This document shows positions 25,148-31,332 of a stretch of 64,000 nt of DNA, one piece after another (position 1 is the first letter of the stretch; every line of letters begins with the position of its first letter). The DNA is from an uncultured Dehalococcoidia bacterium (GTDB lineage Bacteria; Chloroflexota; Dehalococcoidia; Lucifugimonadales; GCA-2712585). A model generated the notes under the pieces. The model was not told the origin of the DNA. It saw only the letters and a program-made list of their open reading frames with translations, and did no database searches. Both the position numbers and the translations under genes were made by a program. Location of the stretch: assembly GCA_951812825.1 (NCBI GenBank), contig OX638324.1, forward strand, positions 692,459-756,458, written 5' to 3'.

Positions 25148-25831
25148 GTGCTTGAATCCTGGAAAAGGCGCGAAAAGCTTGCCTCCGAATTCGGGCGAAC
25201 CTTCTTGACTCTTGAGTGGGCCATACAATCTGTATCGATGGTTTATGCGTTCACACCTGCGTCACCAGGAACACTGAGTGAAAAGGCCGAATCAATCGTG
25301 AAGAAGTGGTGCATCAAGGAAACAGACCACAGAAGAAAGCTGCATCAGATCCTCGAAAAACAAAGTGAGTCGTCACCGTCGCTGAACTCAACTAAAGAAT
25401 ATGAGAGCTGGATATTAAAGGAGTGGATGAACCAAGTCGAATTGATTAGATCGCCAACAAGGTTAACCGAGGAGGAAATTAGACAATTCGATGAGTTTAC
25501 TTCGAACAAACTGAAGCTAATTCCCCTAGGACGCCAATTCAATTACGCCAGATGCTTTCGAAATATGTTGGCTCACAGTAGTTGGGAATTAATCAAAGAG
25601 GATGACACTGCTCAACTAATTTATGTGCCAGATAAAGGCGGTCTAAAATCATTAGCAAGTCTACGGATGTTCGACCTTGACTGTCCGCCATTACCTTGCC
25701 CTTGGGAACATATAACCAAGTCACCGGTCTATTTCATCGGAGAACGTGAGTTAAAACTGATGAAGCAGGTGGCAGTCGATCTAATGGCAGGTTTGAACCG
25801 TGTCGAATGCAAGATTGATGAGATCTCGTAG
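25148..25831 (+). CDS. HEPN-like protein of unknown function, atypical composition
   Basis: 227 residues with a GTG start. It is clearly more AT-rich, with different codon use, than the genes on both sides, which suggests horizontal gain. It appears all-helical and soluble. R138NMLAH143 in ARCFRNMLAHSSW fits the R-x4-H motif of HEPN ribonuclease-like domains, which are common in toxin-antitoxin and abortive infection systems. No partner antitoxin (MNT nucleotidyltransferase) is next to it: upstream is the YyaL gene, downstream the SelW-like gene. The HEPN assignment rests on the motif and helical pattern only. Confidence 0.5.
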   Translation: MLESWKRREKLASEFGRTFLTLEWAIQSVSMVYAFTPASPGTLSEKAESIVKKWCIKETDHRRKLHQILEKQSESSPSLNSTKEYESWILKEWMNQVELIRSPTRLTEEEIRQFDEFTSNKLKLIPLGRQFNYARCFRNMLAHSSWELIKEDDTAQLIYVPDKGGLKSLASLRMFDLDCPPLPCPWEHITKSPVYFIGERELKLMKQVAVDLMAGLNRVECKIDEIS

Positions 25832-25933
25832 TTGGCCACACTAAGGCTCAAGCACCTCAAGACCCTGCCGCCCCTTGACTCTCCCCTAATTCCCCCTTAA
25901 CTTCACCCTACACCCCCCAAAGGAGCCTCCCCC

Positions 25934-26197
25934 ATGCCCAACCCCAAGAAACACGCCATAGAAATCGAATACTGCCACGACTGAGGCCACGCCCTCCGCG
26001 CCGCCTGGATGGCCGGCGACACCCTCAACCGCATCGGCGACCGCATCACCTCCTTCACCCTCATCCCCGGCGGCCACGGCAAATTCGACGTCCGCATTGA
26101 CGGCCAACTCGTCGCCGAGCACCGCCACGAACCCAACGCCCACATCTTCCCCGACCTCCAGGACCTCCTCCAAGCCTTCGACCAACGCTCCGACTGA
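25934..26197 (+). CDS. SelW/Rdx-family selenoprotein (in-frame TGA read as Sec17)
   Basis: 87 codons from an ATG with a strong AAAGGAG site, interrupted at codon 17 by TGA (25982-25984) and closed by TGA at 26195. Sequence on both sides of the internal TGA belongs to one SelW/SelT/SelH (Rdx) domain: IEIEYCHD-U-GHALRAAWMA, then FTLIPGGHGKFDVRIDG, then FPDLQDLL. The family has a redox CxxC or CxxU motif at exactly this place, and here it is C14-H-D-U17. Rdx proteins are thioredoxin-fold, probably thiol oxidoreductases. Codon use does not change across the TGA. Alternative: Cys mutated to stop, with only the 3' fragment left; the intact SD and frame argue against it. The PLP enzyme follows after 31 bases. 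Confidence 0.8.
25985..26014 (+). promoter_or_regulatory. Candidate bacterial SECIS hairpin after the in-frame TGA
   Basis: Directly after the TGA, GGCCA (25985-25989) can pair with TGGCC (26010-26014), and TCC (25995-25997) with GGA (26007-26009), leaving a 9-base apical loop and a 5-base bulge. Bacterial SECIS elements lie immediately 3' of the Sec codon and bind SelB. The pairing was found by eye; the fold was not computed. Confidence 0.4.
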
Positions 26198-26228: not shown

Positions 26229-27482
26229 ATGACCACCCAAGACAACTCCGAAACCGCTGTCGCTGCCCCACCCCAAGACTACCCCCGCGGCCAGATCCTC
26301 GCCACCTCCGCCGACGAAGCCCGCAAGTCCACCCAGGGCCGCCGCCTCGTACGCGACCGCGTCCTATCCCTCGGCAAAGACGCAATCTACAACATGACCG
26401 GCCTCGTCCGCGCCTTCCCCCTAGACCCTGAAGACCTCCCCACCCTGGAAAACCAGTTCACCTACTACACCCACTTCCTCGGACGCGCCGAAGCCATGGC
26501 AATCGAATTCACCGGCGCCAACCCCCGCGACCACAACGCCGTCATGTGCAACCGCGTCACCTCCGCCATGCTCGCCATCATGCTAGGGACCCTGAAGCCC
26601 GCTGACTCCGTCATCTCCCTCGTCGGCAAAGGCCGCTCCCACCCCTCCGTTCAGCAGGCCGTCGAACTCGTCGGCGCCGACTTTATCGAAGTCGAAAGCA
26701 TAGAAGCCCTCGAAGATAACCTCCCCCTAAAGTCCTGGAAAATGCTCGTCATCACCCCTCTCACCCCCTCCAAGCACCACGTCCCCGCCGACCAGGTCCG
26801 CCGCGCCATCCAACTGGCAAAGGATCGCGACATGCTCGTCTTCATGGACGACGCCCACATGATGTCCCGCACCATCTTCTTCGACGAACCCCCAACCTTC
26901 CAGCTAGGCGACGTCGACCTCTCTGTCTGGTCCCTCGACAAGCACGTCCCAGGCCCCCGCGGAGCCGCCATCGTCGGACGCAAAGACCTCATGGAGCAGG
27001 TTTCCGCCCAGGCCTTCCAGTTCGGCCTGGAAGCCCAGTCGGGACACTACGTCGCAATGGTCAGGGGCATGGAAGCCTTCGATCCCGAACCCATCAAGCG
27101 CGCCTCCGCCCTCGCCCGCACCCTGCACAAGAAATTCCAGTCCCGCTTCGGCCCCACCGTCTATCAGGCCGGCCCCGGGGTCGCCCTCACCGCCGAAGAC
27201 TTCACCGAAGTCGTCTTCCAGCAGACCACCTCCCGCGAAACCACCCTCGCCCCCTCGGAAGTCTCCGTCGCCGCCAGCTTCCTCCTCCTCAAGAACTACG
27301 GCGTCATCACCATCCCCATCACCGGCTACCCCGGCGCCGCCCCCACCTTCCGCCTCATGATGCACCCCGACGGCGAACGCTTCGGCGCTGATCCCCTCGT
27401 CAGCGCCGTCGAAGACACCATCGCACAAACCGCCACCCTCCTCCAACACCCCAACGCCGTCCGCACCCTACTCCTCGGCTAA
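26229..27482 (+). CDS. PLP-dependent enzyme, fold type I (SelA/DgaE-like appearance)
   Basis: 417 residues from the ATG at 26229; an upstream reading of 44 codons overlaps the SelW-like gene in another frame and is rejected. PLP-site features: the acidic VFMDDAHMM strand and the Schiff-base Lys238 in SLDKHVPGPRGAAIVGRKDL. That segment looks like the SxDKxLGGPQ...GRKDLI of SelA and related D-glucosaminate-phosphate ammonia lyases. The SelA tRNA-binding N-terminal domain is not evident, so a true selenocysteine synthase is doubtful. Neighbour of the selenoprotein gene (31-base gap), which may be chance. Reaction unknown. Confidence 0.6.
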   Translation: MTTQDNSETAVAAPPQDYPRGQILATSADEARKSTQGRRLVRDRVLSLGKDAIYNMTGLVRAFPLDPEDLPTLENQFTYYTHFLGRAEAMAIEFTGANPRDHNAVMCNRVTSAMLAIMLGTLKPADSVISLVGKGRSHPSVQQAVELVGADFIEVESIEALEDNLPLKSWKMLVITPLTPSKHHVPADQVRRAIQLAKDRDMLVFMDDAHMMSRTIFFDEPPTFQLGDVDLSVWSLDKHVPGPRGAAIVGRKDLMEQVSAQAFQFGLEAQSGHYVAMVRGMEAFDPEPIKRASALARTLHKKFQSRFGPTVYQAGPGVALTAEDFTEVVFQQTTSRETTLAPSEVSVAASFLLLKNYGVITIPITGYPGAAPTFRLMMHPDGERFGADPLVSAVEDTIAQTATLLQHPNAVRTLLLG

Positions 27483-30074: not shown

Positions 30075-30713
30075 CTACCCCACCACCGTCTCAGGCGTCA
30101 ACGGCCTCGAAACCCCCACCATCGAGTCCCGCGTCACCAGCCGCGCCAGCTCCACCTCGCTCCACCCCTCCGTCCCAGCCGGACGCTGCGGCAGCACCAA
30201 ATATCGAACGTCTGCCGTGCTGTCCAACACCTTGACCACCACCCCCTCCTCCAACTCCAACCCGAACTCCCCCATCACTCCTCGCGGATCAATCACCGCC
30301 CTCGACCGATAAGTCAGGCTCTTGTACCAGTCCGGCGGACGTCCAAGCAGCCACGTCGGGTAGCACGAACACAGCGTGCAAACTACAAGATGATGTACCC
30401 CATCCGTATTCTCCGCCACCACCACGTCCGGCAGGCTCTCCGACTCCGAATACCCCATCTCAGCCACCGCCGCCTTCGCGTCTGCCAGCAGCCTATTCTT
30501 GAACCCCGGGTCCGTCCACGCCCGGGCCACAATCCTCGCCCCGTCCGCCGGCGTTCGTGCCTCTCCTTCCGCAACCAGACGCTCAACCTCCTCGCCGCTC
30601 ACAATCCCCTTCTCCACAAGCACCGCCTCCATGGCCCTCACCCTCCGGGCGTAGTACCCCAACTCCTCGTCGTGCGCCATCCCTGGATGTTCATGTCCGT
30701 GAGACTCGCTCAT
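30075..30713 (-). CDS. Nitrile hydratase alpha / thiocyanate hydrolase gamma-type subunit (cobalt type)
   Basis: 212 residues. The metal-binding claw VCTLCSC (Cys112, Cys115, Cys117) with Thr is the cobalt-type signature, followed by YPTWLLGRPPDWYKS and the RAVIDPRGVMGEFG segment of the NHase alpha family. The His-rich N-terminus (MSESHGHEHPGM) precedes the helical start YYARRVRAMEAVLVEKG. It is the third gene of a set in which the beta subunit is encoded as two separate chains, as in thiocyanate hydrolase (ScnC being this subunit) and toyocamycin nitrile hydratase. Substrate: a nitrile or thiocyanate. Confidence 0.9.
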   Translation of the reverse strand: MSESHGHEHPGMAHDEELGYYARRVRAMEAVLVEKGIVSGEEVERLVAEGEARTPADGARIVARAWTDPGFKNRLLADAKAAVAEMGYSESESLPDVVVAENTDGVHHLVVCTLCSCYPTWLLGRPPDWYKSLTYRSRAVIDPRGVMGEFGLELEEGVVVKVLDSTADVRYLVLPQRPAGTEGWSEVELARLVTRDSMVGVSRPLTPETVVG

Positions 30714-30730
30714 TTGCTCCTCCTCTGTCG

Positions 30731-31024
30731 CTATGCCGGCTCCAGCCAGTGCTCGAAAACGTCCGCCAGCAGCTTGTCCCCCTCCCGGCCCTCATACCCT
30801 TCCCACAACTGCCTCTGGCTGAACTCCACCAGGTACAACGGCATCGCCGGCTCCCCCGACCCGCCGTACGCCAGCGATTCCGGGTTCGGGTACGCCCCAT
30901 GACACCTCTCCACAGTCCCAACCTTGCCCCTGATGAACCACGGCGTCCGGTTGTGCCCCTTCACATTCAAACAACGCACTCTCACCCTATCCCCCGCGCC
31001 AAACTTCGGCTGCTGCTCTGCCAT
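30731..31024 (-). CDS. Nitrile hydratase beta C-terminal-half subunit (ScnA-like)
   Basis: 97 residues from the ATG at 31024; an extension to 31129 would overlap the preceding gene. It corresponds to the C-terminal SH3-like half of nitrile hydratase beta: FGAGDRVRVRC, NVKGHNRTPWFIRGKVGTVE, HGAYPNPE and LYLVEFSQRQLWEG. The gene stands 5 bases after the N-terminal-half gene and 17 bases before the alpha-type gene, giving the order found in scnBAC. It has its own start and stop, so the split is real and not a frameshift. Confidence 0.85.
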   Translation of the reverse strand: MAEQQPKFGAGDRVRVRCLNVKGHNRTPWFIRGKVGTVERCHGAYPNPESLAYGGSGEPAMPLYLVEFSQRQLWEGYEGREGDKLLADVFEHWLEPA

Positions 31025-31029
31025 CGGCA

Positions 31030-31332
31030 CTAACCCGCTCCTCCCGAAAGCTCCCCCATTTTCCCGTCGATCTCTTCCCGCGTGAAAATACCCTTCTCCG
31101 CAAGAATAGACTCCACCGATTCCGCCCACCTTGCATAGTAGCCTATAGACTCATACCTGCTCGGATCGATGCTCTCGATGCCACGGCGCATTTCGTCCGT
31201 GCGCATCAACCCCTTGCCTCGCAACGCTCCAAGAAGGGCGCTCATCCGAACCTCCCAGTCCATCACTGGATGCTCCTCCTGGTCGATGGGATCGTCAGTT
31301 GGCCAACCGCCCCGGTCATGGACTCCAGGCAT
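31030..31332 (-). CDS. Nitrile hydratase beta N-terminal-half subunit (ScnB-like)
   Basis: 100 residues with an AGGAGG site before the ATG. The start MPGVHDRGGWP matches the family's MxGxHDxGG opening. The rest (DWEVRMSALLGAL, YESIGYYARWAESVESILAEKGIFTREEI) is the helical N-terminal half of nitrile hydratase beta. First gene of the three-gene set. The stretch YYARWAESVESILAEKGIF resembles the N-terminal helix of the alpha-type subunit, as is usual for accessory and subunit genes of this family. Possibly co-transcribed with metK upstream. Confidence 0.85.
   Translation of the reverse strand: MPGVHDRGGWPTDDPIDQEEHPVMDWEVRMSALLGALRGKGLMRTDEMRRGIESIDPSRYESIGYYARWAESVESILAEKGIFTREEIDGKMGELSGGAG

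Follow-up and report, generated by a model that had tools for sequence, protein, structure and literature searches.

SelW-like selenoproteins are known from the Sargasso Sea (PMC1088965), and in the GOS data they constitute the most abundant selenoprotein family, with 427 Sec against 56 Cys forms and a CxxU motif (PMC1088965, PMC2398784, PMC1794560). In Sec-using organisms, few or no Cys forms of this family occur (PMC1794560). In the bSECIS model, the hairpin has its apical loop 16-37 nt past the UGA, a G among the first two loop nucleotides, a stem of 4-16 bp and an MFE of at most -7.5 kcal/mol (PMC13188914). A full-text search of the literature outside the subscription journals turned up no study of selenoproteins in SAR202 or Dehalococcoidia. 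Here we describe a gene of the SelW type in a 64,000-nt stretch of DNA (the window, by which the whole stretch analysed is meant) whose organism is, by inference from sequence comparison, a SAR202-type member of the Dehalococcoidia.

Reading frame and translation signals

The Rdx/SelW-like gene lies at 25934-26197 on the forward strand and, with its in-frame TGA taken as Sec at codon 17, has 87 codons and a product of 87 residues (MPNPKKHAIEIEYCHD-U-GHALRAAWMAG...QRSD), the N-terminal part of which reads MPNPKKHAIEIEYCHDUGHALRAAWMAG.... The true stop is a second UGA at 26195-26197. The redox motif C14-H-D-U17 (CxxU) is encoded at 25973-25984 (forward strand; Sec UGA at 25982-25984), and a Shine-Dalgarno sequence, AAAGGAG, is found at 25919-25925 on the same strand, 8 nt 5' of the ATG. 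A codon-use score trained on the long ORFs of the window is above zero before the UGA as well as after it (+4.6 for the 16 codons before it vs +22.9 for the 3' part). Under translation table 11, the sole ORF in this frame is a 62-codon 3' piece starting from the ATG at 26009. A first-pass annotation had claimed the AAAGGAG and ATG before the frame, similar codon use on both sides of the TGA and a gene caller's reduction of the gene to its 3' 62 codons, and all of this is borne out. The other read-through candidates of the window were rejected, as in our own reading they look like antisense shadows of real genes.

Family, fold and active site

The Pfam Rdx domain (PF10262) covers residues 9-81 and runs across the UGA (7e-14; 52.2 bits against a cut-off of 22.6), and the earlier observation of one Rdx/SelW domain read through a UGA at codon 17 is thereby confirmed. 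The NCBIfam model TIGR02174 (CXXU_selWTH) scored 33.9 bits against a cut-off of 34.2, a narrow miss of 0.3 bits, so that rule-based annotation may fail to rescue the gene even where Sec is handled. With 38.5 bits against a cut-off of 88, the match to the Campylobacter equivalog NF041051 is much too weak for the gene to belong to that orthologue group.

In the alignment and the predicted structure, C14 and U17 lie between strand 1 (residues 7-14) and helix 1 (19-37). The AlphaFold model, built from the alignment of 13 orthologues, has a pLDDT of 92.8 and a pTM of 0.81, and its best 21 PDB matches in Foldseek are bacterial SelW-related proteins; thioredoxins come next in rank. The SelW-related matches have a TM-score of about 0.8 and 30-36% identity, with 2fa8, 2oka, 2obk and 2p0g at the top. 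These four and 3dex are Cys-type Rdx proteins that share the fold of the window protein and align with it by profile, and 2fa8 of Agrobacterium and 2oka of Pseudomonas have Cys where the window protein has Sec. Rdx/SelW proteins have been proposed in general as thiol/selenol oxidoreductases or redox switches. The window protein is probably a small thiol/selenol-disulfide oxidoreductase or redox switch, with a presumed redox activity and partner.

Relatives and exchange of Sec and Cys

When 84,980 species genomes were scanned with peptides that leave out codon 17, 13 orthologues of 53-78% identity emerged, all from Dehalococcoidia, Chloroflexi or SAR202 assemblies, and all 13 have TGA at codon 17. 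This agreement among independently fetched orthologues excludes a chance origin of the frame. A search of the same order added further orthologues that likewise have TGA, and this codon is TGA without exception in the 20 distinct relatives whose identity is 50% or more; Cys forms of Rdx are first seen at about 43-44% identity to the window protein. Two sequences are identical around the UGA to sequences of the other collection, namely L069 to L053 (same genus) and L072 to L056 (SAR202 cluster, same order), and these matches point to a SAR202-type member of the Dehalococcoidia as the source of the window. The gene is not universal in the genus, as the window-type Rdx is missing from the near-complete genome G403, which has only the second Rdx described below.

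Across the class, 61 distinct Rdx genes were compared at codon 17: 33 have TGA there, 28 have TGC or TGT, and no other codon occurs. This strict exchange agrees with the earlier claim, for which an alignment of SelW homologues had been proposed as a check, that the TGA holds the second position of the CxxC/CxxU motif. On a protein tree built without residue 17, the Sec/Cys label needs three changes, and one Cys gene, L086, is nested within the Sec clade with support of 97/86.

A hairpin kept at silent positions

The candidate bSECIS hairpin, CGCC-GCC [UGGAU] GGC-(C)-GGCG, lies at 25999-26018 on the forward strand and has 7 bp and one bulged C (-11.0 kcal/mol in a local fold). Its apical loop, UGGAU (26006-26010), begins 21 nt past the UGA and has G at the second position. 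In the close Sec genes this stretch codes for A23-A24-W25-M/I26-A27 with the same UGGAU loop, and two pairs of third positions carry the evidence for it. At the silent pair A23/A27, Watson-Crick combinations occur in 28 of the 33 Sec genes (14.4 expected from shuffles) and in 4 of the 28 Cys genes; all four Watson-Crick types are represented in the Sec genes (C-G 18, U-A 5, G-C 4, A-U 1), the remaining five being C-C. The pair formed by A24 and residue 26, which is silent or nearly so, is Watson-Crick in 29 of the 33 Sec genes (C-G 22, U-A 7, with G-G in four) vs 18.8 expected, and in 6 of the 28 Cys genes. Stacked on each other in the hairpin, these are the top two Watson-Crick excesses among 120 third-position pairs.

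The Fisher p-values for Sec vs Cys genes are 2.5e-8 (A23/A27) and 2.5e-7 (A24/26), but the test treats related genes as independent, and owing to kinship among the sequences both the shuffle and the Fisher values overstate significance. The tree offers just two or three independent Sec/Cys contrasts, too few for a sign test. The first four pairs of the hairpin are intact in 27 of the 33 Sec genes vs 1 of the 28 Cys genes, and L086, the Cys gene inside the Sec clade, has lost both silent pairs.

The window gene and one family member, L074, have C-C at A23/A27, the best-covarying pair, so the window helix must form with one bulged C. Its stem without the bulge amounts to only -4.1 kcal/mol, and because of this mismatch the window sequence falls short of a strictly read model, which asks for an upper stem with at least 4 bp in unbroken succession next to the loop, here UGGAU; the stem of the clade has 4-5 uninterrupted base pairs with silent covariation. 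If the bulge is allowed, the window hairpin lies within the limits of the bSECIS model (21 nt, UGGAU, 7 bp, about -11 kcal/mol). For the window alone, the 57 nt that follow the UGA do not fold better than shuffled sequences in a plain fold (z 0.55), and the corresponding folds of 12 orthologues gave z near zero in most. The first-pass annotation had noted that a hairpin can form right after the TGA, and the pairs that covary in Sec and not in Cys genes uphold this through comparison, not through folding energy. On these sequence comparisons we regard the hairpin as real; the evidence for it is comparative and does not come from single-sequence energy. In the distant Sec genes L038, L050 and L051 and in the second Rdx, local folds gave other hairpins in the same place.

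One could suppose that the TGA is a sequencing error, or that a Cys-type rdx gene has lately acquired a nonsense mutation and become a pseudogene, since UGA is one base from UGC and UGU and the window is known from a single assembly. However, the same TGA stands in all close orthologues from independent assemblies, the clade alignment shows a conserved protein before as well as after codon 17, and the hairpin covaries; for the clade this explanation is refuted, and for the window gene we consider it extremely improbable.

Selenocysteine machinery and other selenoprotein candidates

The host genome is a single contig of 2.47 Mb (95.65% complete, 3.89% contamination). It contains a tRNA-Sec at 1743062-1743154 (75.7 bits against a cut-off of 47), which ARAGORN also reports as tRNA-SeC with anticodon tca (UCA), together with selA at 2188473 (550 bits), selB at 1942814 (350 bits) and selD at 1058509 (375 bits), each above its curated cut-off. 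The earlier suggestion that this organism makes selenocysteine thus finds all four of the genes named for its check in the genome; selB and tRNA-Sec are present, and the codon at 25982 is TGA and neither TGC nor TGT. As 132 of the 147 sampled genomes of the order have selB, its presence provides little contrast. Of the 17 genomes whose TGA orthologue reaches 54% identity or more, 16 have selB; it was not found in the remaining one, an incomplete assembly of 610 contigs.

Codon 18 of selD is itself an in-frame TGA (NCAG-U-ASKF), and a hairpin with a GGU loop, AAGACCUGGUGCAGGUCUU, comes after it. Six of the nine genes of the AhpC-TSA family have one TGA inside the domain, in contexts that include FATW-U-PAC, FWTYC-U-INC and NNTPG-U-N; these AhpC/Prx-Trx-like loci are at 681331, 1726899, 2131808, 2202770, 2203937 and 1790073 of the host contig, and an AhpD-like gene with an in-frame TGA (CRY-U) is at 944094. 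Hairpins of the bSECIS type with GGU or GUU loops follow several of these TGAs. A second Rdx gene, Rdx2, lies at 1414326-1414538 on the reverse strand and, like the window gene, has TGA in its CxxU motif (YCVP-U) followed by a hairpin, CGCCA CGUGGA UGGCG. Its product is 29% identical to the window protein, is without the His-rich insertion described below, and belongs to a separate group that is more widespread in the order. The genome thus has at least ten selenoprotein candidates, made up of the window gene and at least nine others with a TGA inside a redox domain or SelD; this tally is a minimum from targeted searches. The apparent selenoproteome is unusually rich.

The occurrence of frames with one read-through TGA in many genes of the genome might also be taken to mean that selenocysteine plays no part, and that UGA in this lineage either has become a Trp or Cys codon or is decoded by a near-cognate tRNA. 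Against this, the window gene itself ends with UGA, the full Sec machinery including the tRNA-Sec with anticodon UCA is present, the TGAs inspected stand where redox motifs such as CxxU or UxxC would have them, several with a SECIS-type hairpin behind, and codon 17 alternates with Cys codons only, so there is hardly any room for either reading. Just as improbable is a functional product consisting of the 62-aa ORF from 26009, with the UGA as the ordinary stop of a leader peptide, which matches the gene as given by table 11 but would have neither strand 1 nor any of the CxxU motif, both conserved across the clade, is at odds with the continuous Cys homologues, and has no Shine-Dalgarno sequence adjoining its ATG on inspection.

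In short, we put at about 96% the probability that the gene encodes a small thioredoxin-fold, Rdx/SelW-like selenoprotein in which the UGA at 25982 is read as Sec by way of a SelB-bound hairpin. Computation has established the frame, the family, the conservation of the UGA at a single codon, the presence of the whole machinery and the covariation in the hairpin. Ribosomes would start at 25934 and reach the UGA at 25982, where SelB on the hairpin at 25999-26018 would deliver Sec-tRNA(UCA); Sec insertion would create a C14-x-x-U17 active site immediately ahead of helix 1, and the second UGA would terminate translation.

Neighboring genes

The downstream gene (26229-27482, forward strand) begins 31 nt past the stop of the selenoprotein gene, and its product is a PLP enzyme from the MJ0158/UPF0425 family, which is SelA-like. 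Its score for TIGR03576 is 206 bits, below the cut-off of 304, its UPF0425_C score is above the cut-off, and the true selA is located elsewhere in the genome. A functional link to this gene was considered and rejected, as the two are not adjacent in the fetched relatives with flanks; the contig of the closest relative ends before the region that would show it.

On the upstream side, only the closest relative (L053/L069) has the DUF255/DsbH gene beside its orthologue. In the window, an ORF of 227 aa (25148-25831, forward strand) is inserted between the DUF255/DsbH and selenoprotein genes, and it is missing in L053, where these two adjoin. This ORF is visibly more A+T-rich than its neighbors, and it has no match in Pfam or NCBIfam. 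Farther downstream (30075-31129, reverse strand), a nitrile hydratase alpha subunit is encoded beside a small protein with the C-terminal domain of the beta subunit.

A histidine-rich insertion

The gene's one unusual point is a predicted His-rich beta-hairpin. The insertion, H63-R-H65-E-P-N-A-H70, is encoded at 26120-26143 (forward strand), is specific to the clade in the alignments (consensus H63-x-H65-E/L-P-x-A/T-H70) and is predicted by the model to form an extra beta-hairpin (strands E64-66 and E69-71). A further residue, H48 (codon at 26075-26077, forward strand), lies within P-G-x-H-G-K-F and is invariant in the clade; H48, H63, H65 and H70 are all invariant in the 13 aligned orthologues. 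The HxH...H insertion is missing from 2fa8, 2oka and the Cys-type Rdx rows of the alignment. It is conceivable, albeit rather unlikely, that the clade is a separate SelW subfamily in which H48, H63, H65 and H70 act with C14 and Sec17, for example in a metal-binding or proton-relay site. If so, SAR202-type bacteria would have in this protein a selenol enzyme linked to a metal, or a metal carrier, and not a plain SelW redox adaptor.

Comparison with known SelW-like selenoproteins

The value of the locus is in its setting: a SAR202-type Chloroflexota lineage encodes the Sec machinery and apparently many selenoprotein genes, and standard gene calling truncates these genes. The comparison of 61 Sec and Cys genes also provides a clean, experimentally testable case of a bacterial SECIS whose pairing is preserved by silent bases and disappears where Sec gives way to Cys. 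The gene itself is a further member of SelW/Rdx, a kind of protein already known; as SelW-like proteins go back to the Sargasso Sea survey, in kind this is an ordinary find. The SelW-like proteins of the Sargasso Sea and GOS data resemble it in the CxxU motif, the in-frame UGA, the bSECIS directly 3', the marine setting and the dominance of Sec, and the window clade may already be among the GOS SelW-like sequences. In a comparison at the level of the family, what distinguishes the window clade from these proteins is its His-rich insertion.
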